From NCBI RefSeq assembly GCF_018446385.1, contig NC_055991.1, positions 72,296,123 through 72,360,122 on the forward strand: 64,000 bases of DNA, given 5' to 3'. Both the position numbers and the translations under genes were made by a program. Shown in pieces: positions 11,127-56,080 of the stretch. The notes beneath the pieces are model-generated. The model was not told the origin of the DNA and searched no databases. It saw only the letters and a list, made by a program, of their open reading frames with translations. This DNA is from Zingiber officinale. Lineage: Eukaryota > Streptophyta > Magnoliopsida > Zingiberales > Zingiberaceae. How positions within the stretch are numbered: the stretch's first letter is position 1; every line of letters starts with the position of its first letter.

Positions 11127-11325
11127 TGCCATGTAACACCCCAAATTTCATGATTTAGAGTTCTAAAAGACCTTATTAAAATCTAGAAATGGTTTAGAAA
11201 AGTTCTAGAGATTTTTAGAAATTTTTAGAGTATTTTTATGGAATTTTTGGAGTTCGTTTGGTATTTTTACCAAGAGGAAGAAGTTTAAAAAAATAAAAAA
11301 AAAAATAATAGTAAATATATATGTT

Positions 11326-11404
11326 GAAGCCGGGTTTTGAACCCAAGACCTCGGACCCGAACTAGGTTTTAACCGGACGCAGCCGACCAGCCGAGCTACG
11401 CTCG
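11326..11404 (-). other. tRNA-like module A1, antisense to LTR-A
   Basis: On the minus strand an A-box-like TAGCTCGGCTGG (11398-11387) is followed about 42 bp later by a B-box-like GGGTTCAAAACCC (11344-11332) whose GGG/CCC can pair as a T-stem. Order and spacing are those of tRNA internal promoters, but no full cloverleaf is seen, so it is not a tRNA gene. Confidence 0.6.
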
Positions 11405-11480
11405 TTTTGTTAATCATATATGGAGCGATATATATTTAAGTAATAGTTAGGAACAGTAAAATAATAGGAAATAAAATGGT

Positions 11481-11550
11481 TGCAGCTGGGATTCGATCCC
11501 ACGAGTTGGGCTTTAAGCAGAACGCAGCCCACCAACAGACCAGCCGCGGG
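11481..11550 (-). other. tRNA-like module A2, antisense to LTR-A
   Basis: The minus strand has TGGTCTGTTGG (11542-11532) as a degenerate A box and GGGATCGAATCCC (11500-11488), one mismatch from the B-box consensus, with pairing GGG/CCC. It lies 156 bp from module A1. The spacer after each module shares TATTTAAGYAATAGTTAG, so the two are diverged tandem units. Confidence 0.6.
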
Positions 11551-13067
11551 TTTGTTAATAAAACCCGAATCAAGTTGTATTTAAGCAATAGTTAGTTAAC
11601 AGAATATTAAAGTTATAAGAAGAGAACTTAGGTTTTTCCCCGTGACAAAATCTTCTCCTCCTCTCGCGACGGTGCTTCTCCTCTCGGGCGAAAACAGAGA
11701 CGAAGCTAGGGCTTCGTCTCCGGCGGCCGGCGAGCACCCTTCTCCGTGAGTTCTTCATACCTTTGTGATCCTCTCGGCAAGGAGAGCGCGCGGGCACAAA
11801 GAAGAGCCGAAACAACCACATCTCCGAAGCCCTAGAGGTCGTCTCCGTCGGTTGTAAGTCCAAGAACGCTCGGTGAGTTGCTTCTCACCTGCAGTAGGAG
11901 TAGTTCCGCGACATTGATCTCCTTTTCCTTTTGATTTCGGAATTTGATTTCATTCCTTATCATTCACAGCATGTTTGTTTGTTTAGCTGGTGGTTGTCGG
12001 TTTCAAATTCTTGTTAGCTTCTTGATGTTTATTTTGAAACATGCTGTAAGGAATAAGTTGTTCTAGTTTCCTTCTTTGATTCGGATTGATCCGTATATTC
12101 TTTGCTGCCGTGAGTTTTAAGAAGATGAGGAGAGATTTGGAATAACATGGATAGCTAGTTCAGGAAGGTTTTGGATTCGGTTTTAATCCCCTTGCTATAC
12201 AAAGAGTGTAAACAGCCCTTGCATTTAGCACTGAAAGTTTTAGTTTCTGGCCACTTCAATGACCATGAACGGATTTCTGTTAAGTGGCAGTCTTAGTTCC
12301 TTTCTTACTGTATTGAGTATGAAATGATTGTAATTTAGCAATTCAGTGTAGGATTCCCTGAAAGGTACGAGCATGGACAACTCTTTTGCATCAAGCATTA
12401 GTTGGTTTTATTGTTTACTTAATGAACAAGAATAGACAAGTAGTGGAATGGTTAGGTATTCTATTAAATCTTGTTTTAGGTTTACGAGTAGTTCAAGGAT
12501 TATATTTTTCCTTCTTTGATTATGGCAGCAGTAGACCCTTTTATTCCTGCCGTGAGCAGGATTAGTTTCTGATTCGATTTTTAGTTAGCAGTTCAGATTT
12601 GTATTCCTTTACTTTAAGTATACCATGTTTAGAAGACCTAAAGTAGCATTCCTTGCTGTTTTTTTCAGTATGTTAGAAAGCTTAGAGTTTCATTCTTTTG
12701 CCCTGTTTTTACAGTGTGGTTAAAAGGCTTAAAGTTGCTTTCTTTTGTTTAGTTTATAGCATGATCAGTAAGCCCAAAGTTACTTGCTTTTACTCTATTT
12801 TTATAGCATGTAGATTTTTATAAGTAAAGTATGCAGATTTTTGATAGGCTTAATATGCAGATTTATGTTAAGCTTTGTATACAGATTTTTAATACGTAGG
12901 GTGTGTTCTAGTGCACACCAAGTGCTTGATAAAATGTTTAGCTCAATATAATGCTACAGTAGGCATTTTAATAGCTCAGTAAATGCAGTAGAAGCATTTA
13001 AAATAACTTATTTAGTCTTGCTTCAGCTTATATGGGACTACGGTCCAATGGGTGGGCTCCCACAGTC

Positions 13068-13240
13068 GCCTCTAGGTTCAGATAACCTAGTTCTAGGTTC
13101 AGATAACCTAGTTAAAGCAAGATAAGAAAATTAGCTATGAAATCAGTATTTTATTTTCAGCAGTGGCACTGTACTGGATTAGATATCCATTGGGTTGGGC
13201 TCCCACAGTCGTCCCTAGGTTTAGATAACCTAGTACTAGA
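13068..13240. repeat. Hairpin motifs in LTR-A
   Basis: CTAGGTTCAGATAACCTAG occurs twice in tandem from 13072, and CTAGGTTTAGATAACCTAG once from about 13215. Each is a perfect 7-bp inverted repeat with a 5-nt loop. The motif recurs in LTR-C (30898-30945, 31050) and once, damaged, in the 3' LTR of Tekay-B (about 50416). Confidence 0.75.
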
Positions 13241-13439
13241 CTCGGAACTTGCAATCCCAGGTTTAGTTAGGGATGCGCGCACAGCAAGTACAGTTGCCGG
13301 GCCCATCAGCAGCATGATTATTATTTTGATCTATTATGTAAATAGTTTTCAAAACTTCACAAATTAGTTATGTGAATACAAGTTAGACTCAGTTTAGCAT
13401 TAATTAGTTCAGCTAATGTATCGGTTCAGTTTCTTATTG

Positions 13440-13740
13440 ATACACATGATAGTTCTATGATTAGCTATACATGTTTAGTATTTCAGTTAGCATGATTCCT
13501 TTATTGGTTTATGAGCATGATTAGTTGTACATGTTTAGTATTTCAGTTAGTATGATTCCTTTATTGATTTATGAGCATAATTAGCTATACATGTTTAGTA
13601 TTTCAGTTAGCATGATTCCTTTGCTATATATGAGCATGAGTAGCTATACATGTTAGCTTTTCAGTTAGTTGATTTCTTTGCTATTTATGAGCATGAGTAG
13701 CTTTACATGTTAGCATTCAGTTTTAGCATGTCTTTATTTG
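13440..13740 (+). repeat. Minisatellite in LTR-A
   Basis: About five imperfect tandem copies of a ~60-bp unit, each with TAGCTATACATGTTTAGTAT, CAGTTAGCATGATTCCTTT and a TGAGCATGA phrase. They lie in the putative LTR intron and account for part of the LTR length difference between families. Confidence 0.8.
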
Positions 13741-14314
13741 TATACATGCATATCGAGTTTTTGTGAGTAGATGGCGCTCACTAAGCTTTATGCTTATAGA
13801 CTGCATTTCCTCCTACTGCAGATAAAGGAAAAGCTAAAGTATAAGGAAGAAGGCGACAAGGAGATGCTGTGACGGTGTGTGATGTGTGGACTATGGAGAT
13901 CCTTTGAGACTTAGCTAAAGAACTCACTTAGTTTAAGATTTGTTATGTTTCCTTTTCTTTTCTCCTTAATGCTATGATGAAGTTGAGATTGTAATTGAGT
14001 TTATTTCCGCATTTGTAGTTTGATACCTCCTATTGTTGGAGTGATATGGTTGCTTGCCATTGCTAGAGTAGTTTCATATTTTTATTGTGCTATTATACTG
14101 CGTGGTTGTGAAATTATATGTTCCAGCCGCCTGTGGCTGAGTATACATGTTATGTATCCCAGTTTGGGGTCACCGGTACAGGGGAGACTTTGCCGAAATT
14201 TTTCGGTAGAGTTTCTATGTGATTTTTAATCATACCGGTTAAGTAGAGTTAGTAGTCAAGTAGCGGTCATCCTTAGAGCGTAGTAGTAGTAAGAAGGGTG
14301 GTCGTTACATGCCA

Positions 14315-29926: not shown

Positions 29927-30055
29927 TCCTATGTAACGCCCGAAAATTCTCAAACTTGCATTAGAATTATTCTAAGATTTTTCTGGAATTTTTAGATATT
30001 TTTCCGGAATTTTCCGAGTAGCGGAAGTAGCAAAAATAATTAGAAGAATAAAAAG

Positions 30056-30144
30056 GCTTAAGCGGGAATCGAACCCGGGACCTCTCGGGTCCGCTAAACC
30101 TTTAGTTAGCCTTAACAACAGGTGAACCCAGCAGGGCCGTGCTG
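30056..30144 (-). other. tRNA-like module C1, antisense to LTR-C
   Basis: The minus strand has an exact B box GGTTCGATTCC within GGGTTCGATTCCC (30076-30064) and a weak A-box-like GGCCCTGCTGG (30138-30128). Module position relative to the TATA box is as in LTR-A and LTR-B. Confidence 0.6.
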
Positions 30145-30509
30145 AAAGAAAGAGGAACCAATTATATTTATATTGGAGTTGGGTTCAATAATTCACTTAA
30201 TATAAATTTAGAACTTAAGATGGGTTTGGTTTAATTTGGTTCGGCAGCCCTCTCCTCACAAAACCCCACGCCACCTTCTTTCTCCAAACCCTCACACCGA
30301 ACACCTCTTCCCTTCTTCCTTCTTTCGGTGCCACACCAAGGAAGACCTAGGGTTCTTTCTCTAGGGCCCCAAGGACACTTTCCGGCGACGATTTCAGCAC
30401 AAGGACGTTCCCCTCCGCGAGTAGAGCACGTGGACACGAGCGAATCGTCGAGAAATCATCTCCACAGGAATTTCTAGCGATTAGATTTGTAAGAAATCTA
30501 CCACACAAG

Positions 30510-31490
30510 GTAAGAAACCCCTCACCTGCAGTATAATAGCTACCGTTTGATTTTCTGTGCATTAGTATAGTTATATGCGTATATCTTCAACACATAGGGT
30601 GTATTTAACCCTCCTCGCGGGTTTAGGGATTTAGTGAGTACCTTTAGATGGGCTGGACACGTCTTTTCTCCTTCATTTGGAGGTTTAGATGCGGTTGGGT
30701 GCCTAAAGGTAGTCTCCCTAATAGAGAAGGGAGTTAAGGCACACTAGGTGTTCGATTAAATAACCAGCTTAGAAAAAAATGCAACTTAGGCATTTTTATT
30801 AGCACAGTTGAATGCATTAGAAGCATCTAAATTAGTAAATCGGTTTATTCTAGCTTATATGGGACTACGGTCCAATGGGTGGGCTCCCACAGTCGCCTCT
30901 AGGTTCAGACAACCTAGCTCTAGGTTCAGATAACCTAGAAACAGCAATTTAGAACAGTTTAGCTATACTCAGTATTTTACTTTTCAGTTGGCACTGTACT
31001 GGATTAGATATCCATTGGGCTGGGCTCCCATAGTCGGTCCCTAGGTTTAGATAACCTAGTAGCTCTACTAAATTCGGGACTTGCAACCCCGGGTCTAGTT
31101 AGAGATGCGCGCATAGCACGTACAGTTGCCGGGCCCATCAGCAGCATGTTTAGTATTTTCACTTATTATATGTATATGGTTTTCAACCTTTCATAAAGTA
31201 GTTCGTGAATTCAGTACAGTTCTAGCAGTAGCTCAGTATTAGCATAGCTCAGTTCTTAGTATCAACTTAGTTTTTCCTTGTGAATATGCATGATGACTTT
31301 ATGCTCAGCTTTAGATATGCCATGATTGTATGCTTCTATGTCATGCCATGCTTAGTTTGTTCAGTATATCCAGCATATGTTTTAAACAGCATGATTTGAA
31401 ATCATATTTGCATCGTTGCATATTTTTGTGAGGTAGATGGTTTCTTACTAAGCTTTTTAGCTTATAGATACTACTTTTCTTATACTGCAG
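30510..31490 (+). other. Putative intron inside LTR-C
   Basis: Donor AAG/GTAAGA at 30510 and acceptor TATACTGCAG ending at 31490, followed by ATAAAGGTAAAGG. CTCACCTGCAGTA lies just inside the donor as in the other LTR types. Length 981 bp versus 1744-1949 bp elsewhere. Confidence 0.5.
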
Positions 31491-31799
31491 ATAAAGGTAA
31501 AGGAAAGATGGACTAGCAGAGGAAGCTGGAGGGCAATGCAAAGATGGTGTGTGTGGCAGGAACTGGAATCAAAGATCTTTAGGGGACTTAAACATTCTAG
31601 CTTAGAAATATGAACTTTTAGTATTTTGCTTTTTATGCATTTTAAGTTGTTCAATGCTAGAAATTAAAGAACCATGCACTATAACAAGTTAGATTGCTAG
31701 TCTTATGTTATTGGAATGTTTATTATGCATTAGATAGTTATAGTGTGAGGTTTTGGCACGAACCAGTGCTGAAATCAGAGTTTCAGTGCGAAATCAGAC

Positions 31800-32122
31800 A
31801 CCCCAATCGATCGGTGGATTGATTGGGGGGTCCCAATCGATCAGCTGATCGATCGGACAACTTGCTCCGCGAACAGTAGGTTTCTGGATCGATCCTCCGA
31901 TCGATCCAGCAATTTCTATCGTAAACAGAAGGTTCGGGGATCGATCACTGGATCGATTGGTCAAGCTGGATCGATCAGCCGATCGATCTAGAATATCGTC
32001 CCGAGCACCGTAGCGTGCTGGATCGATCTCTGGATCGATCCAACCCATGTCCCGCATATAGTAGCCGGCTGAATCGATCCTTGGATCGATCCGACGTTCC
32101 AATCGATCAACGGATCGATTGG
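31800..32122. repeat. Array of eight GATCGATC-based dyads in LTR-C
   Basis: Eight paired motifs about 40 bp apart, each two ATCGATC-type octamers separated by 4-6 nt, facing each other (for example CCAATCGATC and GATCGATTGG around a 4-nt spacer near 32099). Each can fold as a hairpin. The minus-strand ORF 31794-32102 is a by-product of this composition. Confidence 0.85.
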
Positions 32123-32350
32123 GAGGTCTGATAACAGCTGGAAAAGTTTATTTCAGCTCCTTGACCATAGGGGATGTAGTATATGTTAGGTATACTTTAG
32201 ATTACATCCTTCAGTACATGTAGAACCAAGAATAGTTATCAGTTAGCAACTAAAACTTTAATTAGATCAGTTTTCCGCACAGTATAGTTTAGCATTATTG
32301 TGACGATAGGCCTAACAGCTAGTGCCCAGAAGGCGGGTCGTTACATCCTA

Positions 32351-36910: not shown

Positions 36911-37814
36911 TGCACATGCTTAAAGAAGCTAGACTAAGTTTGCACTTGCTAATAGGCAAAGTATAATCCGGTTCTGCACTTGCTAATAGGGAAACATAAT
37001 CCGATTCTGCATTCATTTTCTTTGCATAAGGTCAGATTCAACTTACTGTAAAGCTAAAACAAGCATAAACATCAAAATTCACAGCTTAACTCCTTTTTGG
37101 AAAACAACCCTAATTTCCAATTATGCTTCATCGGATTGGCAGGAAAAATGCGCAACATTATGAACCTGTTCTAAGGTCCCTAACCTCCTAATTCCCTACA
37201 ACTAAAAATAGGAAAACAGAAATTGCTACAGAAATGCTGGAAATTCAGTAGGCACAGAACCTAGAGAAGGAATACAATCCTACATGCTTAACCTAAATCA
37301 TTCATCTTCTTTCTATAAGACTCACGGCAGAAAACTAAAAGAAACCAAAAATCTTTATAACATGCTTTGAATTCAAAATGAACAAAGAACACAATTTCTT
37401 TACCTTAACATGCTATGCTCATGAAAGGAAAGGGCAACTTGCTGTGCAGCCCAAATATTAAGTCTAGGGTTCATGCTAGGCCTCGGAAGCAAGGAAAAAT
37501 CAAAATGGAAAACCCGAAACAACTCCTACCGCAGGTGAGTAGTACTTACTGCCGGTTCTTGGACTTACAACCGGAGAATAGGACTCTAGGGTTTCGGCTA
37601 GCTTCAAATCTCGGGGCTCCTTTTGTTTCCGCGTGCTCCTTTCGACGAGAGAAGCTCGGGTCCAAGAAGATCTCACGGAAGTGTCCTTGTCCGACCGCCA
37701 GTGGCGAAGCCCGAGCTGCGGCTGCGTTTTTGCCCGAGAGGAAGTCGATGCCGCGAGAGAGAAAGGAATCACGAGATTAGGTCACGGGAATAATCCTTTC
37801 TCCTCTTAACTTGT

Positions 37815-37824
37815 CCCTTTTATA
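37815..37824 (-). promoter_or_regulatory. TATA box of the 3' LTR of Tekay-D
   Basis: The minus strand reads TATAAAAGGG between the tRNA-like module and the leader. The equivalent in Tekay-B is TTATAAAAGG at 45382 and 48909. Confidence 0.6.
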
Positions 37825-37891
37825 ACCTAGGTCTAACTTTGCCCTTTACTATAACTTACATATATCCCGCTTCATACTTATTAACAAACCA

Positions 37892-37973
37892 CGCGTAGCC
37901 CAGTTGGTTGGCTGCGTCCGGTTAGGTCGGGTTCGGCCGTAGGTCTTGGGTTCAAGTCTCACCTTTAACGGTT
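37892..37973 (+). other. tRNA-like module D1, antisense to Tekay-D (3' LTR)
   Basis: A box TAGCCCAGTTGG (37896-37907) fits the eukaryotic consensus. A B-box-like GGGTTCAAGTCTC follows at 37948-37960, 40 bp later, a spacing like that of tRNA genes. No convincing acceptor stem. The copy in the 5' LTR (44731-44795) has GGGTTCGAGTCTC, closer to consensus. Confidence 0.65.
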
Positions 37974-38135
37974 TTTGTCAAAACTTCTTTCTTTTTGTAA
38001 ACCTACTAAACGACCTCCAAAAATTACGTAAAAATACTCTAAAAATTATTAAAAATCTCTAGAATATTTTAAAAGCATTCCCAAATATTTTTATGGACTT
38101 TTAGAACTTGAAATAGGGAAAATTAGGTTGTTACA

Positions 38136-38150
38136 ATCCCCCATACCTTA
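38136..38150 (-). other. Polypurine tract of Tekay-D
   Basis: The minus strand reads AAGGTATGGGGGAT directly before the LTR start TGTAACAACC. Confidence 0.75.
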
Positions 38151-41000
38151 TAAAAAGTTCGTCCTCGAAATTAGAGTAGCTCTAGATACTTCTGTCTCAT
38201 ACTGTCCTCTCGCTCCCAAGTGATTTCCTCGTGCTTCTAGTTCTGCCAGATGACCTTCACTAGTGGTACTTCTTTGTTTCTCAATCTCTTGACTGCTCTG
38301 TCCACTATCTGTGTAGGTCTGCTCTTATAACTAAGATCCTCTTGGATCTGCACTGACTGAGACTGAATCACTTGGCTCGGGTCATAGAGACACTTCTTTA
38401 GCATGGAGACATGAAATACTTTGTATATTGCTGACATGTCTTGTGGCATGTCCAACTTGTAAGCTACTTTCCCAATCCTCTCTATGATCAAGTAAGGTCC
38501 TACATAGCGAGGACTTAATTTGCCCTTCTTGCCTAATCTCATCACTCCCTTCATAGGAGCGACCTTGAGGAAAACTGAATCTCCTACTTGGAATTCCAAT
38601 GGCCTACGGCGTGTGTCAGCATAACTCTTCTGTCTGCTCTGGGCAGTCTCAATTCTCTGTCTGATTTTCTGGATCACCTGAGTGGTCTCGTCTATCAGCT
38701 CTGTCTAAATGCCCAGCTCTACTTTCATCTCTTTTCTCTCTCCTGCTTCTTGCCAGCATATGGGTGATCTGAATTTCCTGCCATATAGAGCCTCATAAGG
38801 TGCCATCTTGATGGTGGCCTGATAGCTATTGTTGTAGGCGAATTCAGCTAAGCACAAATACTTGCACCAACTTCCCTTGAAATCCAGCGCACAAGTTCTG
38901 AGCATATCTTCTAAAATCTGATTTACTCGTTCTGTCTGCCCATCAGTCTGAGGATGGATGTGCTGAACTTGAGTTTGGTGCCTAGTGCATTCTGAACGCA
39001 CTCCCAAAAGTGTGAAGTGAAGCGCTCATCTCTATCAGAAATGATAGATTTAGGAACTCCATGAAGTCTGATTACCTCTTTAACATATAGCTGGGCCAAC
39101 TGCTCTATAGAGTGAGACACCTTGATGGCTAGGAAGTGAGCAGACTTGGTCAATCGGTCTACTATTACCCATATCGCATCATATCCATTGGTGGTTCTTG
39201 GAAGACCTGTTATGAAGTCCATGGATATATCTTCCCATTTCCATTCTGGTATTGGAAGAGGCTGAAGAACTCCTTCTGGTCTCTGGTGTTCTGCTTTGAC
39301 TCTCTGGCATGTCAAGCAGGTACTGACATATTTAGCAATGTCTCTTTTGAGTCCTGGCCACCAGAACCTCTGTTTCACATCTTGGTACATCTTGGAAGAA
39401 CCAGGATGCATGGAGTATGGTGTGCTGTGAGCTTCTTCTAAGATCTTCTTCCTCAGTTCTTCATCATTGGGAACGCAAATGCGACTCCCCTGATAAAGAA
39501 TCCCGCTGTCTGTTACTCGAAACTCTGATTTATCTTCTTTCTGTAACCCTTGCTTGATTTTCTGGATGTCTGGATCTTTACTTTGCTTTCTCTGTATCTC
39601 CTCAAGCAATGTGGACTCTAAGGTCAATGCAGAGAGTTGTCCTTCAATAATTTCAAGTCCAAAATCCGACAACTTCTTCTGCAGTGGCAGGGCTAATGAT
39701 GACAAAGACGTCAGGGATGCACTGGATTTTCTGCTGAGTGCATCTGTCACTTTGTTAGCTTTGCCTGGGTGGTAGAGGATTTCACAGTCGTAATCTTTGA
39801 CTAACTCCAATCACCTGCGCTGTCTCATGTTTAAGTCCTTCTGAGTGAAGAAGTACTTAAGACTCTGATGATCTGTGAAGATTCTACACTGAACTCCATA
39901 CAAATAATGTCACCAGAGTTTAAGTGCAAAAACCCCAGCTGCCAACTCAAGATCATGAGTAGGGTAGTTCTTCTCATAATCTTTGAGTTGTCTGGAAGCA
40001 TAAGCTATGACTTTTCCTTCTTGCATGAGTACAGCTCCTAAGCCCATCTTGGAAGCATCACTGTAGATGTCGAAACTCTTGTCGCTATGTGGAACAGTCA
40101 GAATGGGAGCACTGATCAATCTCTTCTTTAGCTCTTGGAAACTCTGCTCACATTTATCTGACCATTCGAATCTCTTGTTCTTTCTGGTGAGGGCTGTTAG
40201 TGGAGAGGCTATCCGGGAAAAGTCCTCCACGAACTTCCTGTAGTACCCAGCTAAACCAAGAAAGCTTCTGATCTACTTGGCGTTCTTGGGTCTATGTCAG
40301 TTGTTGACCGCCTCTATTTTGGTTGGGTCCACTTGAATACCTTCTTTAGAAATTATGTGACCTAGAAATGCCACTTGATCTAACCAGAACTCGCACTTTG
40401 AGAATTAGCATAAAGCTGCTTCTACTATAGGGTCTGCAGTACTATTCTCAAGTGTGTGCTGCTCCTCTGGGGTCCTTGAATAGACTAGAACGTCGTCGAT
40501 GAATCCGATGACAAATTTGTCAAGGTATTCTCTGAGCACTTTGTTCATTAAGTCCATGAAGACTGCAAGTGCATTAGTCACTCCAAAAGGCATGACTACA
40601 AACTCGTAGTGTCCATAGCTGGTCCTGAACGCCGTTCTGGGTATATCTCTTTCTTTCACCTTCAGCTGATGGTACCCAGAGCGTAGGTCTATCTTTGAGA
40701 ACACTGTTGCTCCTCTTTACTGATCAAATAAGTCATCGATCCTGGGAAGGGGGTACTTGTCCTTAACTGCTACTTTGCTCAGCGTTCTGAAATCTATGCA
40801 CATTAGCACGGATCCGTCTTTCTTCTTAACGAACAACACAGGAACTCCCCAAGGTGAGTGACTGGGGCGAATGAAGCCTTTGTCAAGTAACTGCTGTAGT
40901 TGTTCTTGTAACTCCTTCAGCTCTGCTGGAGACATGCGATACGGAGCTTTTGAAATTGGACCGGTTCCAGGAACCAATTCAATCTCAAATCTACCCATTT
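38151..41000 (-). pseudogene. Gypsy chromovirus pol of Tekay-D: RT, RNase H, integrase, chromodomain, broken
   Basis: In order on the minus strand: an RT start ([35 protein letters not shown]), a stop at about 40716, [17 protein letters not shown] and catalytic FIDDVLVYS (40405-40704). A short deletion or frameshift follows, then RNase [21 protein letters not shown] (about 40080), the integrase zinc finger [15 protein letters not shown] ... CLTCQRVK (about 39290-39420) and the integrase core [24 protein letters not shown] frameshift near 38930-39000 precedes [16 protein letters not shown]. The C-terminal GPY/F part (SPRYVGPYLIIERIGKVAYKL) runs into a chromodomain remnant (HEEITWERE) with a stop before it. 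The protease is absent. It would copy and integrate the element; this copy cannot. Confidence 0.92.
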
Positions 41001-41170
41001 ATTGGGAGGTAGTCCAGGTAGATCTGTTGGGAATACCTCAGGATATTCACAGACCACCCGAACCCCCTCTTGCTTACCTTCTTTCTATTCTTCTGCACTT
41101 ACTTAACTGGGGCTCCGGGCTCCCTACTGTCTTGTCTTCTATCTTGGCTGGCTTGAACTCTATAAACTCC

Positions 41171-41710
41171 TCATAGTGCTTGTTGGTGATAGAACTCTTC
41201 ATAGAACTCTAACTGAAAATCTGCCCAGCTCATCTGATCGGCTGCTCTCTTGGTCTTTATCCTCTCCCACCACATACGAGCATCTCCAGACAGGCAGAAA
41301 GAGGCGCACTTGACCTTCTCGACTTCTGGCCAGTCAAGAAGCTCCATAGTGCTCTCTAGTGTTTTAAACCAAGCCTGGGCATCCCAGGGCTCAGTCGTGC
41401 CTGAGAAGCTCTCTGGTTTCAGCTTCAGCCACTGTATAAGATAAGCTTCTGGTCTCTGGGGTGCTGTGACGGCTCCCTGGGTAGCTGGTGGAGTCTCAAT
41501 TACCACTGGAGCCTCTGCAGTGATAGCTGGAGGAGGGGGAGGAACTGCTGGCTGGTTTGCCATCAGATTGGCAATCACTTGCTGCTGCTCTGCTACTTGT
41601 CTCTGGAGCTGAGCAACCACTTCAGAAAGATTGGGCTGGGTTGCTCTGGGGGCTTCGTTCTCTTGAGCTTGGTCCTCAGCACGAACGGTACGGGGACCTC
41701 CTTTTTTCTT
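41171..41710 (-). pseudogene. Gag fragment of Tekay-D
   Basis: The minus strand reads a Gln-rich N-terminal coiled-coil-like part (VAQLQRQVAEQQQVIANLMA), a Pro/Ala linker, and the gag core FSGTTEPWDAQAWFKTLEST ... SGDARMWWERIK ... SWADFQLEFYEEFY. It ends abruptly after about 150 residues from the first Met. The remaining gag, zinc knuckle and protease are deleted, and RT sequence follows within about 170 bp. The frame continues upstream of the first Met to about 41710 without an ATG, so the original start is lost. Confidence 0.85.
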
Positions 41711-41953
41711 AATGTCTAATTATGCAAAGAAAAAGACTTGGTATCCTCTCTCCAACCCTTCTAATCATACATAAATATGAATAAAGAAAAGGGAAACTAA
41801 ATCTTCTATCTTACTTTAGTACTCAAAAAACAAGTACTCTATACTGCAGTTAATAATAAGAAAAGCAGAATAAAGAAAGGATTTAAATACTTTCTTACTT
41901 GGAGACGGCGAGGATGATGCCGATGTGTGTGTGATGCTGGAGAATGGAACACT
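41711..41953 (-). other. 5' leader of Tekay-D
   Basis: Non-coding leader between the primer-binding site and gag. It resembles the short leader of Tekay-B at 47896-48060 in content (ATACTGCAGT, AGTACTCTATACTGC-like phrases). Confidence 0.55.
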
Positions 41954-41965
41954 GCTCTGATACCA
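41954..41965 (-). other. Primer-binding site of Tekay-D
   Basis: The minus strand reads TGGTATCAGAGC, the initiator tRNA-Met complement, two bases after the LTR end. Confidence 0.9.
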
Positions 41966-41967
41966 AC

Positions 41968-44900
41968 TGTAACGACCACCCTTCTTACTACTACTCTCTA
42001 AGGGCGACCGTTACCTAACTACTACTCTACTTACTAGTGTCACTGACGCTATTATTAGAATCAGTTAGATTTATCACAGCCCTAGAGGAATCCCTACCGA
42101 AAAATTTCGACAGAGTCTCCCCTGTACCGATGACCAAATCCATAGTACATAAGATATATACGCAACCACAAGCGGCTGGAACACATTTTTCACAACCACG
42201 CAGTTATGAAAACAACAGTAAAAGAAAGGACTACTCCAGTAAAACAACCAACTATATCACTCCACAAATAATTAAAGTGACTAAATGCATATGCGGAAAT
42301 AAACTCAACTACAATCTCACAAACTTCATAATAGTGTTAAAGAAAAGAACTAAAGCATAAACTCTAATCAAATAGGTCCTGCAGGTTTGGTAGCACCCTC
42401 TGGATATCTCCATAGTCCAGACATCACACACCTTCATCACCACCACCATCCTGTCGCCTCCCTTTCATATCTTAGCTTTTCCTTTATCTGCAGTAGGAGG
42501 AAAGAAAAAAAAGATCTATAAGCGAAAACGCTTAGTAAGTACTAATCTATCTCACAAAACTCGAAGTGCATAAAAGTAATGCAATAATACTGAAACTGAA
42601 ATGCTAAAGCAAAGCTGCATGTACTCATGGTATACAGAAATAAAACTGAATACTAAACATGCTCACTAACTGACAGGAAAGTAATGAAACTACTACTGTA
42701 GGCTTAGAATTAAAGAACTAAACTTTTATTGATTCTAAGCATAAACTTGTTTCATTTTCTTATATCTTTACACCAGAAATTAATCTTTTAATTTCTCTTT
42801 TACTTTCTTCTTCTTTTCTTTTTCTTTTCTTCTTCTTCTTCTTCTTCTTCTTCTTCTTCTTTTGGTTTCTTCTTTGGGCCCAGGCTTAGTACCATCTTTA
42901 TTTTGCGCGCTCTCTAATAGTGACTGGGGTAGCGAGCCTCCAGCCCTATGAGGATAAAGACCTCGGTCTTACCAGGGCCAAGACCTCGGAATTGGTCACC
43001 TGGATTTATTTAACGACAACCTCGGAAGTCGGGTACTAGCCTCTTACTTTAATTTACTTGTTATCTCTTTTTAACTAGACTTTAGTCTTTTTCTTTACTC
43101 ATGCTTCTTATAATTCTTTATTGGAGCCTATTAGAATCCTATAGATATATCTAACAAGTATAGGATTACAACTAACCAAGCATGCTATATAAAAATAACA
43201 TAAAGGAAAGTAAATCTGAACTCTCTCTAAGCATGTTATCAACAAGGCAAGAGAAAAGCAAAATTTGAACTTCTAACATGCTGTAAATAAAGGAAAAGAA
43301 AGCACATCTGAACTTACTAATCACGCTATAGAATAGGGCAAAAGAAAGTAACTTTGGGCCTTCTAAACATGCTACAAAATAAGGCAAAAAGAAGCAAATC
43401 TAATCTTACTAATCATGCTACAAAATAGAGCAAAAGAGAACTAATTTGGACTATCTAAACATGCTGTGAAAAGAGCAAAAGAAAGTTAATATGAACCTTC
43501 TAAACATGCTGTGATAAGAGCAAAAGAAGCAAATCTAATCTTACTAATCATGCTACAAAATAGAGCAAAAGAAGCAAATCTAATCTTACTAATCATGCTA
43601 CAAAATAGAGCAAAAGAGAACTAATTTGAACTATCTAAACATGCTGTGATAAGAGCAAAAGAAAGCTAACTTGGACTTTCTAAACATGCTGTAAAATAGA
43701 GCAAAAGAAAGCTAACTTGGACTTTCTAAACATGCTGTGAAATTCTGCACATGCTTAAAGAAGCTAGACTAAGTTTGCACTTGCTAATAGGCAAAGTATA
43801 ATCCGGTTCTGCACTTGCTAATAGGGAAACATAATCCAATTCTGCATTCATTTTCTTTGCATAAGGTCAGATTCAACTTACTGTAAAGCTAAAACAAGCA
43901 TAAACATCAAAATTCACAGCTTAACTCCTTTTTGGAAAACAACCCTAATTTCCAATTATGCTTCATCGGATTGGCAGGAAAAATGAGCAGCATTATGAAC
44001 CTGTTCTAAGGTCCCTAACCTCCTAATTCCCTACAACTGAAAACAGGAAAACAGAAATTGCTACTGAAATGCTGGAAATTCAGTAGGCACAGAACCTAGA
44101 GAAGGAATACAATCCTACATGCTTAACCTAAATCATTCATCTTCTTTCTATAAGACTCACGGCAGAAAACTAAAAGAAACCAAAAATCTTTATAACATGC
44201 TTTGAATTCAAAATGAACAAAGAACACAATTTCTTGACCTTAACATGCTATGCTCATGAAAGGAAAGGGCAACTTGCTGTGCAGCCCAAATATTAAGTCT
44301 AGGGTTCATGCTAGGCCTCGGAAGCAAGGAAAAATCAAAACGGAAAACCCAAAACAACTCCTACCGCAGGTGAGTAGTACTTACTGCCGGTTCTTGGACT
44401 TACAACCGGAGAATAGGACTCTAGGGTTTCGGCTAGCTTCAAATCTCGGCGCTCCTTTTGTTTCCACGTGCTCCCTTCGACGAGAGAAGCTCGGGTCCAA
44501 GAAGATCTCACGGAAGTGTCCTTGTCCGACCGCCAGAGGTGAAGCCCGAGCTGCGGCTACGTTTTTGCCCGAGAGGAAGTCGACGCCGCGAGAGAGAAAG
44601 GAATCGCGAGATTAGGTCACGGGAATAACCCTTTCTCCTCTTAACATGTCCCTTTTATAACCTAGGTCTAACTTTGCCCTTTACTATAACTTACATATAT
44701 CCCGCTTCATACAAATTAACAAACCACGCGTAGCCCAGTTGGTTGGCTGCGTCCGGTTAGGTCGGGTTCGGCCGGAGGTCTTGGGTTCGAGTCTCACCTT
44801 CAACGGTTTTTGTCAAAACTTCTTTCTTTTTGTAAACCTACTAAACGACCTCAAAAAATTACGTAAAAATACTCTAAAAATTCCTAAAAATCTCTAGAAT

Positions 44901-44970
44901 ATTTTAAAAGAATTCCCAAATATTTTTATGGACTTTTAGAACTTGAAATAGGGAAAATTGGGTTGTTACA
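41968..44970 (-). mobile_element. 5' LTR of Tekay-D (3003 bp)
   Basis: Plus strand TGTAACGACCACCC to GGGTTGTTACA. Near-identical to the 3' LTR; six differences in the first 250 bp and few afterwards. It has the TTC run, minisatellite, putative intron (42488-44384) and tRNA-like module (44727-44800) at the same relative places. Confidence 0.93.
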
Positions 44971-44975
44971 CAAGA

Positions 44976-47881
44976 TCACGGACCCGAACCCGAGTATTAA
45001 CGAACTCAGCCCAACCATCTGTTCTACGGATGTTTTGTTAATCATATATGGAGAGATATATATTTAAGTAGTAGTTAGGAACAGTAAAATAAATTGGAAA
45101 TAAAAGTGCGCGGCTGAGGAATCGAAGCCGAGATCTCTCATTCGGTTAAATGCCGGCTAACCAACTGGGCAAGCAGTTGTTACTTGAACAGATAAAGGAA
45201 GAGATTTATTTAAGTAATAGGAATTAATAACAAAGAAATAAAAGGAAGAAAAAGGGGTAGCAGTCAAGAATTGAAACCGGGGCTTTTTGTCTTGGTCAAA
45301 ATCCAGCCAACCAATTATTCCACGGATATTTTGCGAAAGAGTTGGCAGCCAAATAACCTTAAGTTAATAGAAATACCAGAGTTATAAAAGGAACTTAGGG
45401 ATTAAGAATTTCCCGAGCCCTAATTTCTCCCAAATCCTTTCTTCTCTCGCTCGCGATTTCCTCCTCTCGCGTGCGCGGCGATTTTTGCCCGAGCGAAACC
45501 GAAGCCGAGATTAGGGTTTTCTCCGGCGTCGGCTTGAGGTTCTCCGAGGGGTTTCTTCACCTCCTTAAGCTTTTCTCGTCGAGGAGAAACGGAGAGCACG
45601 GAGAGGAGCCGGAAATTTCAATCTTCCGAGCCCTATAAGCACTAGAAGGTTTCTCCTTCGGCTGTGAGTCAAGGGAACGAAGGTAAGTCGCTTACTCACC
45701 TGCGGTAGGATAGCTTCGAAGTTTAATTCTTGTTCCTTTTCTTGTTCCCGAAGCTTTGGATGAAACCTAGGGCTGTGTTGTTGCCGAATGATGGAACGAG
45801 AAAGGATTTGAGTTCTTTCCTGTGAAGTTCTCATTTTGATTTATGCCTTCCTTGATGTTATTGATTCAGTTGGGGATTCTTAATAGATTTCTATAAGAAT
45901 TTGGATGTTGCAAGTTTTCTCTTCGCTTTGTTTCAGATTCGAGAGAGGTTGTGTAGAATTGGTGATTGTTTTGCTTTCCTGTGTGGTTTTGATTCACGGA
46001 TTGATTTGGTACTTCCTTGTATTTTTGAAGCATGCTGTGGAGATTTGGGGGGCAAAGTGTAGAGGTTGTATACTGATCAGTATATCAGATTTGTCTAGTA
46101 GTATGTTTAAAGAAATATTTCTAGAGGTTTAAGAGATAAATTAGTGGGTTATGTTAGTTTTGGTTCTATGCTTTTGCATGCTACAAACTCAATGCATGTT
46201 TTATTAGTAACGATTATGCATTTCTCTTCTTGTTCATGCGAGAATTTGACTAACAGAATTTTAGTCCCCTTTTTGCATCTAGTTCCTTTGCTATTGGAAT
46301 AACATGAGCAGATTTATTCAAGTGAGCATTTATATTCATTCAAGTAGAAGTAGGCATGAACAGATTCATTCAAGTGTGCATTTATATATTCATCAAGTTC
46401 TTTTGCTATTTAGATTTAGTAAATAACATGAACATGTGCAGATTTAGATTTCTAGTTCCTTTGCTATGGGAATAACATGAGCAGATTTCTAGTTTCTTAT
46501 GTTATTAGATGTGCATGAGTAGGCTTCCTTCTAAAACAATCAGTTTCTAGTATCTTTAGAGCTTAATATGTAGAATTCTATTAGCATAGTAGGTAGATTT
46601 TCGGTTTGAGCATTTTAAAGTTAGAATTTGCTTAAACATTTCAGTTTCTTTTAAAGGAAGTATTCTTTTAGAAGTATTAACAAGTATAAGAAGATAAAGA
46701 AAAGAAAGAAGAAGGCCAAGGCCTTAAGTAGATCCCAAAGTTAAAACTTTAAGGATTTTGGCACACAAGGTGCTAAAGAAAATGCCGAGGCATTATATAG
46801 AAGTATTAAAAGATAACAAGTATTTTACTTTTATCAGTGGCACTGTGTTGGACTCTCTGTCCTTGGGCTGGGCTCCCATAGTCGTCCCTAGTAGTAACGG
46901 CTCGGCCGACGGTCGACGGTCGACGACCATAGGGTCACCAAATGGGCCCCCAAATGGGCCGCCGAATGGGTCGGGTCATTACAAAAGTAAAAGCACAGTT
47001 GTCGGGCCCAAGAAGAAGTTGATTATTATTTTGAAGTATTATAAGTATAAGTTTTTGAACAAGTAAAATGAGTTTTACATAAACATAAAGTATTAAAGAT
47101 TAAGTTAGAACAAATGAAATAAGTTTCATATAGTTCTAAAAATCAGTAAGTTTAGTTCTTTATTCTACCATGTTTATCTAGTAGATGAGTAGTTTTCATG
47201 TTTACCTATTAGATGAGCAGCATGATTAACTATTAGAATTACATGAGTAGATTCCTTAGCTTTTTTTGCTATTAGTTTGACATGAGCAGTTATGTTTATG
47301 CTTTATTTCTTTTTAGAGCATATAGTTTCTAGTTCTTTTCGTATACATGCACATTCGTGATTTTGTGAGTTAGATAGCGCTTACTAAGTAAATTTTGCTT
47401 ATAGACTACACTTCCTCTTACTGCAGATAAAGGAAAAGAAAAGATTTAGCAAGGAAGGCTACAAGGTGGCGCGGATGGTGTGTGATGCCAGGACTATGAA
47501 AGCCTTGGTTGGGACTTAGTTTAAGAATTTATTAAGATTGCCATTTATTAAGAATGTATTAGATGAGTCATTTAGTCTTCCGCTGTTAGTTAATTGTATG
47601 TTTTTATTTTGTTTCCGCTATTCATTACTTGCGTGATTTGATTTCATTAAACTCCGTGGTGATGTTATTCCTTTTGTGTGTTTGATATGTGTTCCAGCCG
47701 CCTGTGGCTGTGTATATTATGTTATGTATGCCAGTTTAAGGTCACCGGTACTGGGGAGACTCTGCCGAAATTTTTCGGTAGGGTTTCTATGTGATTTTTA
47801 ATCATACCGGTTAAGTAGAGTTAGTAGTTAAGTAACGGTCATCCTTAGAGAGTAGTAGTAGTAAGAAGGGTGGTCGTTACA
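44976..47881 (+). mobile_element. 5' LTR of Tekay-B, remainder
   Basis: Resumes after CAAGA with TCACGGACCCG and ends GGTGGTCGTTACA at 47881. It matches 48504-51408 with roughly 2% difference. It carries the rest of module B1, modules B2 and B3 (about 45109-45185 and 45257-45330), TATA (45382), leader, putative intron (45683-47426) and a GC-rich insert (46895-46983). Confidence 0.92.
46895..46983 (+). repeat. GC-rich module with GTAACG/CGTTAC ends in LTR-B
   Basis: A ~89-bp segment from GTAACGGCTCGGCC to GGGTCGGGTCATTACA, with direct GGTCGAC repeats, set in otherwise AT-rich LTR. A counterpart with GGGTCGGGTCGTTACA is at about 50434-50512 in the 3' LTR. It matches, inverted, the end part of unit E1 at 34684-34775. 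Its termini are imperfect inverted repeats. Confidence 0.7.
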
Positions 47882-48301
47882 GTTGGTATCAGAGCAGTTC
47901 CCATTCTCCAGCATCACACATCATCACCATCTTTGCCGTCTTCAAGTAAGAAAGTATTTAATTTTTTTTATGCTTTCTTTATTATTTGCAGTATAGAGTA
48001 TCTGCTTATATGTGCTTAGGAAAGAAGAAAATTCATGTTTTAATTTTCTATGTTTTGATACATATGCTTAGAAAGAATAGAGACAATTTTAGTTTTGTTT
48101 CTCTTATATTCATATATACATAAGTATGTTTAGAAAGGATAGAGAAGTTAAGAGACTAAGGAACAAAAGAATATCATTAGTAGAAGTCATTTAAAACCAG
48201 AAGCATGAGGAAGTTACTTAGGAGCATGAGGACAGTATGAGATAGAAATGTCCAGAATTATTCTAAGTTCGAGGACGAACTTTTTATAAGGGAGGGAGAA
48301 T
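47882..48301 (+). mobile_element. 420-bp internal region of Tekay-B
   Basis: Contains primer site TTGGTATCAGAGC (47883-47895), a leader, a scrap of the pol end (AAGTTCGAGGACGAACTTTT, about 48266-48285) and a polypurine tract AAGGGAGGGAGAAT just before the LTR. No gag, protease, RT or integrase. Fits a LARD-like or deletion-derived element moved by enzymes supplied in trans. Confidence 0.9.
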
Positions 48302-48480
48302 TGTAACACCCCAAAATTTATGATTTAGAGTTCTAAAAGACCTTATTAAAATCTAGAAATGTTTTATAAAAATTCTAGAGATTTTTAGGAATTTATAGAG
48401 TATTTTTATGCAATTTTTGGAGTTCATTTGGTATTTTTACCAAGAGGAAGAAGTAAAAGAAAAAAAAAATAATATATGTT

Positions 48481-48560
48481 GAAGCCGGGTTTTGAACCCA
48501 AGATCACGGACCCAAACCCGAGTATTAACGAATTCAGCCCAACCATCTGGTCTACGGATG
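48481..48560 (-). other. tRNA-like module B1, antisense to Tekay-B
   Basis: Minus-strand A box TAGACCAGATGG (48554-48543) and B-box-like GGGTTCAAAACCC (48499-48487) with a GGG/CCC stem. In the 5' LTR the same module is split by Tekay-D. Confidence 0.65.
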
Positions 48561-48633
48561 TTTTGTTAATCATATATGGAGCGATATATATTTAAGTAGT
48601 AGTTAGGAACAGTAAAATAAATTGGAAATAAAA

Positions 48634-48715
48634 GTACGCGGCTGAGGAATCGAAGCCGAGATCTCTGATTCAGTTAAAAGCCGGCTAACCAACTGAGCTA
48701 GCAGTTGTTACTTGA
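48634..48715 (-). other. tRNA-like module B2, antisense to Tekay-B
   Basis: The best of the set. The minus strand has TAGCTCAGTTGG (48700-48689), an exact A-box consensus, in a D-arm-like GCTCAGTTGGTTAGC with pairing GCT/AGC, and a B-box-like GGCTTCGATTCC (48657-48646), one mismatch from consensus. The A box stands 8 bases into a possible acceptor strand, as in tRNAs, but acceptor and anticodon stems do not pair well. Confidence 0.7.
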
Positions 48716-48784
48716 ACAGATAAAGGATGAGATTTATTTAAGTAATAGGAATTAATAACAAAGAAATAAAAGGAAGAAAAAGGG

Positions 48785-48855
48785 GTAGCAGTCGAGAATT
48801 GAACCCGGGGCTTTTGGCTCGGTCAAAATCCAGCCAACCAACTGTTTCACGGATA
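48785..48855 (-). other. tRNA-like module B3, antisense to Tekay-B
   Basis: Minus-strand A-box-like TGAAACAGTTGG (48849-48838) and B-box-like GGGTTCAATTCTC (48806-48794). It lies about 150 bp from B2 and 60 bp before the TATA box at 48909. Confidence 0.6.
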
Positions 48856-51413
48856 TTTCGCAAAAGAGTTGGCAGCGAAATAACCTTAAGTTAACAGAAA
48901 TACCAGAGTTATAAAAGGAACTTAGGGCTTAAGAATTTCCCGAGCCCTAATTTCTCCCAAATCCTTTCTTCTCTCGCTCGCGATTTCCTCCTCCCGCGTG
49001 TGCGACGATTTTTGCCCGAGCGAAACCGAAGCCGAGATTAGGGTTTTCTCCAGCGTCAGCTTGAGGTTCTCCGAGGGGTTTCTTCACCTCCTTAAGCTTT
49101 TCTCGTCGAGGAGAAACGGAGAGCACGAAGAGGAGCCGGAAATTTCAATCTTCCGAGTCCTAGAAGCACTAGAAGGTTTCTCCTTCGGCTGTGAGTCAAG
49201 GGAACGAAGGTAAGTCGCTTACTCACCTACGGTAGGATAGCTTTGAAGTTTAATTATTGTTCCTTTTCTTGTTCCCGAAGCTTTGGATGAAACCTAGGGA
49301 TGTGTTGTTGCCGAATGATGGAGCGAGAAATGATTTGAGTTCTTTCCTGTGAAGTTCTCATTTTGATTTATGCCTTCCTCGATGTTATTGATTCAGTTGC
49401 GGATTCTTAATAGATTTCTATAAGAATTTGGTTGTTGCAAGTTTTCTCTTCGCTTTGTTTCATATTCGAGAAAGGTTGTGTAGAATTGGTGATTGTTTTG
49501 CTTTCCTGTGTGGTTTTGATTCACGGATTGATTTGGTACTTCCGTGTATTTTTGAAGCATGCTGTGGAGATTTGGGGGGTAAAGTGTAGAGGTTGTATAC
49601 TGATCAGTATATCAGATTTGTCTAGTAGTATGTTTAAAGAAATATTGCTAAAGGTTTAAGAGATAAATTAGTGGGTTATGTTAGTTTTGGTTTTATGCTT
49701 TTGCATGCTACAAACTCAATGCATGTTTTATTGGTAACGATTATGCATTTCTCTTCTTGTTCATGCGAGAATTTGACTAACAGAATTTTAGTCCCCTTTT
49801 TGCATCTAGTTCCTTTGCTATTGGAATAACATGAGCAGATTTATTCAAGTGAGCATTTATATTCATTCAAGTAGAAGTAGGCATGAACAGATTCATTCAA
49901 GTGTGCATTTATATATTCATCCAGTTCCTTTGCTATTTAGATTTAGTAAATAACATGAACATGTGCAGATTTAGATTTCTAGTTCCTTTGCTATTGGAAT
50001 AACATGAGCAGATTTCTAGTTTCTTATGTTATTAGATGTGCATGAGTATCCTTCCTTCTAAAACAATCAGTTTCTAGTATCTTTAGAACTTAATATGCAG
50101 AATTCTATTAGCATATTAGGTAGATTTTCGGTTTGAGCATTTTAAAGTTAGAATTCGCTTAAACATTTCAGTTTCTTTTAAAGGAAGTATTCTTTTAGAA
50201 GTATTAACAAGTATAAGAAGATAAAGAAAAGAAAGAAGAAGGCCAAGGCCTTAAGTAGATCCCAAAGTTAAAACTTTAAGGATTTTGGCACACAAGGTGC
50301 TAAAGAAAATGCCGAGACATTATATAGAAGTATTAAAAGATAACAAGTATTTTACTTTTATCAGTGGCACTGTGTTGGACTCTCTGTCCTTGAGCTGGGC
50401 TCCCATAGTCGTCCCTAGGTTTAGATAACCAAGTAGTAACGGCTCGGCCGACGGTCGACGATCGACGACCATAGGTCGCCAAATGGGCCGCCGAATGGGT
50501 CGGGTCGTTACAAAAGTAAAAGCACAGTTGTCGGGTCCAAGAAGAAGTTGATTATTATTTTGAAGTATTATAAGTATAAGTTTTTGAACAAGTAAAATGA
50601 GTTTTACATAAACATAAAGTATTAAAGATTAAGTTAGAAAAAATGAAATAAGTTTCATATAGTTCTAAAAATCAGTAAGTTTAGTTCTTTATTCTACCAT
50701 GTTTATCTAGTAGATGAGTAGTTTTCATGTTTACCTATTAGATGAGCGGCATGATTAACTATTAGAATTACATGAGTAGATTCCTTAGCTTTTCTTTGCT
50801 ATTAGTTTGACATGAGCAGTTATGTTTATGCTTTATTTCTTTTTAGAGCATATAGTTTATAGTTCTTTTCGTATACATGCACATTCATGATTTTGTGAGT
50901 TAGATAGCGCTTACTAAGCAAATTTTGCTTATAGACTACCCTTCCTCTTACTGCAGATAAAGGAAAAGAAAAGATTTAGCAAGGAAGGCGACAAGGTGGC
51001 GCGGATGGTGTGTGATGCCAGGACTATGAAAGCCTTGGAACTTAGTTTAAGAATTTATTAAGATTGCCATTTATTAAGAATGTATTAGATGAGTCATTTA
51101 ATCCTTCCGCTGTTAGTTAATTGTATGTTTTTATTTTGTTTCCGCTATTCATTATTTGCGTGATTTGATTTCATTAAACTGTGTGGTGATGTTATTCCTT
51201 TTGTGTGTTTGATATGTGTTCCAGCCACCTGTGGCTGTGTATATTATGTTATGTATGTCAGTTTAAGGTCACCGGTACAGGGGAGACTCTGCCGAAATTT
51301 TTCGATAGGGTTTCCATGTGATTTTTAATTATACTGGTTAAGTAGAGTTAGTAGTTATGTAACGGTCATCCTTAGAGAGTAGTAGTAGTAAGAAGGGTGG
51401 TCGTTACATTGTG

Positions 51414-54600: not shown

Positions 54601-56080
54601 TGTTGGGACTTTCGAGCCGCAAAAATCGCTTTTTGTGTTGCGGAAACCTCGAAGTCTTGCCACGAATCCATGCGAAGATAAATAAAATTCATGTACATGT
54701 TTGTTTATCCTCGATCTACCTTAGATCTACATAATAAGAGTGTTACCCTTGTCGTGATGCCCTTCGCTTATCCCGCTCATCCAAATAGTTGTCGTATCTC
54801 GTAGAGTGTCAAGTGTACACTCCTCTACACGTATCCACATGGACAAAAGGTGGAGAAAAACCACTTAGAGTGTGCTAGCACCCTTGAATGGTTTCGGTAA
54901 TGGAGGAGAGGGAGAGAATAAGAGAAGAGAAGAGGAAGAAGAAGAAGTTACAACAAGCACAAATGCTTGCACTAATGTGGCCGGCCACATAAAGGAGGGT
55001 TTTAAACCTCCATGTAATACCAAGAGTCATGGCTCTTGGTCTTCCTCATGAGGTCGTACACTATGATGTAGCCTCGATGATGTGGAACACCATCATTGGT
55101 CGGCCCCATGCCAAGTCACAATGAGGTGTCATTTGGTCAAGTCAAACTTGACTCTTCATCTTCCCTCTCAAGTCAAGTCAAACTTGACTTTTTTTATCTC
55201 CCATGGTTGATCAAATCTAACTATTGATTCAAGTCAATTTAATTTAATGAATCTCTATTCATTGGTTTAAATTGACTCAATGAATCATAATCTAAATTAG
55301 ACTCATTCTACACATGAATTAAATTGAGTCCAACTCAATTAGTCTAATTTGGATTACTCTTAATCCAATTTGGTTCATCACATGAACCTAATCCTCTTAG
55401 TCCATCATATGAACCTAATCTCCATCTAATTGCCCTTTGTGTGTGACTCTATAAGTTCTTGTAATGTTGGCTCCTAAACTCATTTAGAAACATAAGTAAT
55501 GAGAAGTATCTAGCAACACATCATTACTACCCAAGTTACAAGAATGTTGAGATCCAACATCACATTTGTGACTACTAATTGTGACTCTCACAATATGTGA
55601 CAATGTCCTTCTATCCTTGACATCTAAATTGATCAATTGAGGCATAGACCGTGTCATCCTCTAATCAATTTATGTCTTGAACTCCAAGTAGATTCACTCT
55701 AATCAAATGAGCTCAATATCTCATATTGACTCATTTGGGTATGGTCATGCACTTAGTGGTCTCACTCTATCAAGAATCATGATGTCACTCCCGTCATATA
55801 GGAGGGATAGATCCCATCTACATCACTCACATCCCTCCGCATAATTTGTTACATACCCAGTAGTCGCCTTTATAGTCCACCCATTTACGGGTGACGTTTG
55901 ACGAAGCCAAAGTATGCAACTCCTTATGTAGGGAACCATGGTGACTTTAAGTCCAAAGACTGATAGTCATACTAATAGTTACATGAGAAAGTATATGACA
56001 CTCATATAATGATCCATGATACTTTCTCATGGCGGGTCATTTAGTATACATTCTCCAATGCATACCCATGTGTCAACTTG
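54601..56080 (+). mobile_element. LTR of family F, plus strand, cut by CACTA-2
   Basis: Begins TGTTGGGACTTTC in the Tat RT. The first ~1250 bp match the reverse complement of 1-1255. It ends where CACTA-2 starts at 56081, with no CA end or target duplication seen, so the true LTR is at least 1480 bp. Includes GGCCGGCCACAT (about 54980) and, near its right end, CATTTAGTATACATTCTCC. Confidence 0.75.

Follow-up and report, generated by a model that had tools for sequence, protein, structure and literature searches.

Candidate Pol III type-2 promoter units, apparently under selection, run antisense in the U3 of long gypsy LTRs of ginger

A group of long LTRs in the ginger genome carries A-box and B-box motifs in the order known from tRNA genes, on the strand opposite to the element. 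The question raised by this locus is whether these modules are accidental likenesses, inherited relics of captured tRNA-like sequence, or promoter units that are maintained for their Pol III signals. We address this question in a window of 64 kb (the whole stretch of DNA that was analysed, to which all coordinates below refer unless a genome locus is named) and in samples of related LTRs taken from elsewhere in the genome.

The window contains four LTR types of this kind, here called A, B, C and D, with lengths of 2.4-3.2 kb. LTRs A and C are solo LTRs on the forward strand, located at 11132..14309 (target-site duplication, TSD, TGCCA) and 29932..32345 (TSD TCCTA), respectively. LTR B is present in two copies that are 95.9% identical over 2931 bp by self-BLAST: the 3' copy (48302..51408, +) has the ends TGTAAC...GTTACA and the TSD TTGTG, and the 5' copy (34482-34683 and 44971-47881) is split by element D. 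The arrangement is thus a nested one in which D, on the minus strand, is inserted in the 5' LTR of B. The 5' LTR (41968..44970, -) and the 3' LTR (35132-38135, -) of D are 98.0% identical over 3016 aligned bp, and the TSD of the element, CAAGA, is found at 44971-44975 and 34679-34683. Element B as a whole (34482-51408) is a non-autonomous element with very long LTRs, i.e. LTRs of about 3.1 kb flank only about 420 bp that contain an iMet-type primer binding site (PBS) and a polypurine tract (PPT). The end of the downstream LTR of D is occupied by two tandem SINE-like units (34685-35131) that are 88.6% identical over 185 bp; each is flanked by the LTR-end repeat GTCGTTACA, which resembles a target duplication, and the units have A/B-like boxes of their own on the minus strand. 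Other repeats of the window include CACTA-type transposase frames at 17421-20050 (-; Transposase_21, DUF4218 and Transpos_assoc) and a pair of inverted copies (1-1255 and 54601-55833) that are 84% identical and lie about 53 kb apart.

The internal part of D (38240..41719, -) consists of separate open frames, and a Pfam scan of the individual frames detected gag (41174-41719), integrase (38926-39810) and SH3_Tf2-1 (38240-38704), all on the minus strand. Judging from the Pfam matches and from plant relatives, these elements are assigned to the Ty3/gypsy lineage. Traits of the Tekay (Del) chromoviruses are present, namely a Ty3/gypsy integrase and gag, a PBS of the tRNA-iMet type and a 5-bp TSD; the label 'Tekay' itself is our assumption, based on hallmarks of that lineage. 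No chromodomain was matched by Pfam downstream of the D integrase at E<=10, and the D frame ends soon after a stretch which we take to resemble the start of a chromodomain.

Both strands of the 64 kb were scanned for pairs of A and B boxes with simple log-odds scores, allowing 30-65 nt between the box starts. Eight of the nine top-scoring pairs belong to the modules reported in the preliminary description, the duplicates in the 5' LTR of B included. The fourth pair joins the B box of a module with an A-like site of the adjacent insertion, and the eighth is a half-module beside the D insertion, whose B-like site differs from the module's own B box. The tenth pair (31958-32030, +, score 21.0) is not a module; it has sense orientation and lies towards the end of LTR C.

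In the 3' LTR of B there are three modules on the minus strand, given here from the A to the B box. Module 1 lies at 48488..48554, with a T-run that starts 19 nt past the B box; module 2 at 48646..48700, with a T4 at +13; and module 3, whose A box is poor in this copy, at 48795..48847, with a T5 at +14. Modules 2 and 3 are also found in the 5' LTR of B (45118..45172 and 45267..45320, both -) with the same T4 at +13 and T5 at +14, respectively. LTR A has two modules on the minus strand: module 1 (11333..11403, T-run at +28) is homologous to module 1 of B and D, and module 2 (11489..11542, T4 at +13) is similar to the TATA-proximal module of the L015 type of B-type LTRs. The module of LTR C (30065..30139, -) is followed by a T5 at +11. 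In D the module is on the plus strand, i.e. antisense to the element, at 44731..44794 in the 5' LTR and at 37896..37959 in the 3' LTR, with a T5 at +13 in both. A run of at least four T residues (T4+) starts 11-14 nt past the B box in 5 of the 7 distinct modules of the window, the values of the others being +19 and +28. The two exact boxes that had been described are also present: the A box TAGCTCAGTTGG of module 2 of B at 48689-48700 and the B box GGTTCGATTCC of the C module at 30065-30075, both on the minus strand. The earlier statement that the boxes are kept in all types is borne out, with the reservation that C has a strong B box but a weak A box (score 4.8 in one scan and 1.9 in another). 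In the 5' LTR of B, the point at which D was inserted is a few bases away from the module 1 B box; this is a single case of insertion beside a Pol III-like module, and it bears on a possible self-targeting to such modules.

The best pair score of each U3 was compared with the best scores in 2,000 dinucleotide shuffles of the same U3. The antisense score was equalled in 3 (A), 0 (B), 1 (C) and 1 (D) of the 2,000 shuffles, so that antisense pairs far above the shuffled background are present in all four LTR types, as had been claimed. Three antisense pairs with scores of at least 17, as found in B, occurred in 0/2,000 shuffles. The best pair of the sense strand was equalled in 88, 561, 114 and 20 of 2000 shuffles for A, B, C and D, respectively, the sense strand of D being borderline. 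Two other LTR types of the window have antisense scores of only 5.3 and 10.1 at best in their first 700 bp, and of 14.1 and 17.7 at best over longer stretches.

In LTR B the Pol II TATA box predicted from the sequence, TTATAAAAGG, is at 48909..48918 (+), i.e. at LTR position 608, and the TATA box predicted for the 5' LTR of D is at 44651-44660 (-). The order of elements in D is an A box at LTR position 240, a Pol III-type AT box at about position 280 and the Pol II TATA box at position 311, a layout that is predicted to be a divergent promoter. The modules had been said to lie just upstream of the TATA box in all types; they do adjoin a Pol II TATA box in A, B and D, but for C a Pol II TATA box could not be established.

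When the U3 regions are aligned, module 1 of A, B and D is seen to be one unit, from end to end, which occupies a single homologous place, and the U3 of LTR C aligns with the other three only loosely. The three are therefore homologues rather than independent captures. Since A, B and D share module 1, statistics based on the window are insufficient, and a junction-anchored sample was therefore taken from the genome. A pattern of the Tekay-like junction between PPT and LTR is present at at least 7,227 places (3,613 + 3,614) of the diploid assembly, and the reversed control pattern at 0. The first 90 of these 7,227 junctions were used, a selection that is blind to tRNA likeness; the 90 LTRs are all from one chromosome (6.2-45.5 Mb) and are thus not a random draw from the genome.

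In the first 700 bp of these LTRs, an antisense pair with a score of at least 17 is present in 83/90 and one with a score of at least 20 in 69/90, as compared to 24/90 and 10/90 for the sense strand, where part of the matches is putatively due to the palindromic nature of the B box. In the first 500 bp, antisense scores of at least 17 were found in 83/90 LTRs vs. 131/2,700 shuffles, and scores of at least 20 in 68/90 LTRs vs. 26/2,700 shuffles. The 90 LTRs form 41 groups (80% identity over 400 bp), and in 35 of the 41 a member has a pair of at least 17. An antisense pair of at least 17 is missing in 7/90 LTRs (L041, L067, L072, L080, L090, L104 and L120), four of which (L072, L080, L090 and L120) still have a visible B-box-like motif. 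Two checks had been proposed in the preliminary description, a comparison of box scores with shuffled LTR sequence and a search for the boxes in other members of the family. In the first the real LTRs score higher, both in the window and in the sample of 90, and in the second the boxes are kept in other genome copies, individual copies being used in place of a family consensus. Elsewhere, the junction pattern matched one viral and one bacterial contig; within the 700 bp that follow these matches no comparable unit was found (antisense best 8.4 in the viral contig, and 17.7, without a T-run, in the GC-rich bacterial one), and both matches are taken for chance. Two scans of viral contigs gave no match.

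The anatomy of the modules includes T-runs, an upstream AT box and a CAA motif, features that are additional to those described before. The first T4+ run of the sampled modules starts 9-15 nt past the B box in 63/83 cases and 16-30 nt past it in 17/83, in one case it comes earlier and in two later or never. A T4+ run at 9-15 nt is found for 344/4,500 random anchors on the same strands and for 34/629 best pairs of shuffled sequences. The 109 modules were also represented by 42 types that are less than 75% identical. Among these types, which are related so that the counts are not independent, T4+ at 9-15 nt occurs in 30/42 (none within 34 nt in 4/42), an upstream AT box in 33/42 vs. a background of 15.5%, with -33 and -34 as the commonest starts, and CAA within 10 nt in 17/42 vs. 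a background of 11.6% (absent from 25/42). Because of this relatedness, p-values that assume independence would be too small and none are given. As a reference, a published survey of monocot tRNA genes gives, in the sections used here, about 38% for CAA within 10 nt, about 28% for a TATA motif and about 69% for poly(T) (PMC11700998). The modules thus have an A box, a B box and a T-run in this order, together with the upstream AT box and often CAA, which are the signals of plant Pol III type-2 genes; a poor A box is seen in C and also in several of the modules next to the TATA box.

A comparison of per-column conservation anchored on the boxes was set aside as biased, and a balanced set of 900 ordered LTR pairs of 50-75% identity, in which each of the 90 LTRs is used as first member, was analysed instead. 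In these diverged pairs the identity is.716 at the box positions (.635 for the A box and.780 for the B box), as compared to.564 in the remainder of the module (base-matched.566) and.612 in the remainder of the first 450 bp. A set of 100 column-permuted motifs gave a mean of.571 and a maximum of.640, i.e. 0/100 reach.716; the A box alone is moderately conserved, no better than the maximum of the permuted motifs. T-runs that serve as putative terminators are retained in.638 (length 4),.717 (length 5) and.892 (length 6+) of the comparisons, the corresponding values for other T-runs of the same LTRs being.319,.497 and.574. The identity figures indicate that the body of the module evolves no more slowly than the sequence around it, whereas the control signals are retained and apparently are preserved by natural selection.

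The same does not apply to the fold. The outer T-stem is paired in 78/126 cases vs. 71.1 +/- 3.6 with shuffled partners (equalled by 206/5,000), and RNA structure was set aside as a selected feature since this pairing is barely above that of shuffled partners. The notion that the modules are functional tRNA genes was rejected as well: the Rfam tRNA family has no match at E<=10 in the window, nor in the separately searched U3 regions of B and A, ARAGORN finds 0 tRNAs in the window and calls a tRNA in 1 of 120 genome loci, and a cloverleaf is not recognised.

The number of modules is variable, 1 in D, 2 in A and 3 in B, where the repeat spacing is 146 and 149 bp, and one genome copy (L097) has four antisense pairs of at least 17. 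A set of 30 B-type loci was collected from the genome after scoring 40 out of 4,867 candidates; it includes the two copies of the window itself (L001 and L011). A B box with a score of at least 9.5 is found at position 1 in 29/30 loci (in six of the 29 via an alternative B-like site next to the usual one) and at positions 2 and 3 in 25/30 each, and the TATA-proximal module falls into six sequence types at 80% identity. These comparisons, together with those of module 1, suggest that the modules derive from one or a few captures and were later duplicated in tandem and exchanged. The preliminary description had offered 'selection or repeated capture' as an explanation. Selection is supported by the conservation of boxes and terminators; repeated capture is not required to account for the homologous first module of A, B and D, and it may apply to C, to the TGTAACACCCA-type LTRs and to the TATA-proximal modules.

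As to the nature of the captured sequence, the unit may have been acquired in the form of a tRNA-derived SINE rather than of a tRNA gene together with flanking sequence; we regard this as conceivable though rather doubtful, and it is compatible with our main reading given below. Kojima proposes that Helenus, Ajax and Cassandra originated when a SINE was inserted into an LTR (PMC10886601), and SINE-like units are indeed present in the window at 34685-35131. On the other hand, the AT box and CAA upstream of the modules lie beyond what a SINE transcript would contain, even if both may have evolved later, and an unsystematic look around the modules revealed no SINE tail or target duplication.

Our main reading is that the U3 of these LTRs probably contains one to four selected, antisense Pol III type-2 units, of the tRNA-gene type, that are arranged divergently to the Pol II TATA box. 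In such a unit TFIIIC would assemble on the A and B boxes and TFIIIB at the AT box near -33, with Pol III initiating close to the CAA motif and terminating within the T-run. The anatomy predicts a short antisense U3 RNA of about 75-110 nt, without a tRNA fold, that would be directed away from the Pol II start of the element. Points against this reading are the moderate conservation of the A box alone and its poor state in C and some other modules, the types that lack CAA, the seven sampled LTRs that lack a high-scoring antisense pair, the sense-strand pairs in 24/90 and the expectation that plant LTRs are mostly silenced. The least certain step is the benefit, and our first guess is that a divergent Pol II/Pol III promoter could be kept open and silencing-resistant, the RNA itself being either a by-product or a regulator. 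A wider proposal, which we make tentatively, is that a coding, high-copy lineage has divergent promoters in which Pol II would work forward and selected Pol III units, up to four in tandem, backward. Antisense U3 RNAs would then arise at thousands of genomic sites, and silencing of the LTR promoter would be counteracted by its open state.

Modules of this kind might also work without productive transcription, i.e. by binding TFIIIC, with or without TFIIIB, and thereby serve, upstream of the Pol II promoter, as an insulator, a nucleosome-free enhancer or a nuclear tether. It would fit such a role that the B box is the best conserved part (.780) and the A box less so (.635), and that the RNA fold is not kept. 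However, mere TFIIIC binding needs neither the T-run, which is located at the distance typical of tRNA genes and is preferentially retained, nor an AT box near -33 and CAA, and it is the conserved terminator that leads us to favour transcription and to consider TFIIIC binding alone unlikely. The conservation data also bear on the idea of a neutral relic, i.e. a captured tRNA-like sequence that is inherited with the LTR and has no present function. Shared descent is sufficient to explain the presence of module 1, one homologous unit, in A, B and D, but it would not lead us to expect that boxes and terminators change less than other positions of the module and the LTR, as they do against the base-matched, permuted-motif and length-matched controls, and we consider such a relic very improbable. 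Finally, U3 enhancers usually contain tandem repeats upstream of the TATA box, and the tandem units of about 146 bp, whose number varies from 1 to 4, could be seen as ordinary Pol II enhancer repeats with an incidental or historical likeness to tRNA genes. The conserved positions are nevertheless Pol III signals in the correct order, spacing and strand, including the terminator, which makes this explanation highly improbable in our opinion.

The selected, divergent Pol III units that we propose can be compared to several known systems. The Helenus TRIMs are similar in as much as their LTRs include a tRNA-like stretch whose A and B boxes are conserved; there the Pol III promoter was deduced from conservation, and isotype and anticodon often conflict so that a tRNA function is improbable (PMC10886601). 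In the sections of the same paper considered here, Helenus elements are miniature and gene-free (search size <1000 bp, longest family 1263 bp), their plant occurrence is given as Selaginella only, a TRIM of this kind is judged unlikely to share long LTR stretches with an autonomous partner, 'not a few' Repbase LTRs are said to be similar to part of a tRNA, and no orientation is given for the tRNA-like units (PMC10886601). The ginger LTRs, in contrast, are about 3 kb long, belong to a lineage that includes an element with gag and integrase frames, and have modules that are antisense and tandem, with a Pol II TATA box alongside in A, B and D; with LTRs of 2.4-3.2 kb and the gag and integrase of D they fall outside the miniature, non-coding elements of about 1 kb or less to which Helenus belongs. 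The Cassandra TRIMs share with the present case plant LTRs, a Pol III promoter and terminator from a small-RNA gene and an iMet-type PBS, but, as described in the parts of the reports cited, their promoter is 5S-derived (type 1) and replaces the Pol II promoter of a non-coding TRIM (PMC7215508, PMC10853983). The ginger units are of the tRNA type (type 2), antisense and located beside a Pol II TATA box, and the 5S rRNA family has no match in the window at E<=10.

Foamy viruses provide a further parallel, as their miRNA cassettes are Pol III-directed units in the non-coding U3 of the LTR, and bovine foamy virus is attenuated by deletion of its U3 Pol III cassette, which, within the passages cited, is a precedent for function (PMC7693620). 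The likeness is one of working mode only, since these are animal retroviruses with hairpin miRNA products and unrelated sequence. Plant nuclear tRNA genes have the AT-rich or TATA-like upstream region, CAA, A and B boxes and poly(T) in common with the modules, as far as the cited sections go (PMC11700998), but the modules are without a recognisable tRNA fold. In the open-access literature that was searched we found no report of tandem type-2 units in antisense orientation within a coding gypsy lineage. The Pol III promoters known from plant LTRs, as they appear in the cited parts of these sources, belong to miniature non-coding elements and act as, or replace, the element's own promoter; in ginger, antisense Pol III-type units, apparently selected, adjoin a Pol II TATA box, and some members of the lineage are coding.

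If active, the modules would represent thousands of extra Pol III start sites in a plant genome, they would link Pol III factors with the way in which retrotransposon promoters are opened, silenced or insulated, and they could inflate tRNA annotation. The ginger annotation counts 3,514 tRNAs, according to the portion of the genome report used here (PMC8342452), and some of these may be LTR modules of the kind described. At genome locus L058, ARAGORN calls a tRNA-Ser (1718-1791 of that locus, -) within a Tekay-like LTR.
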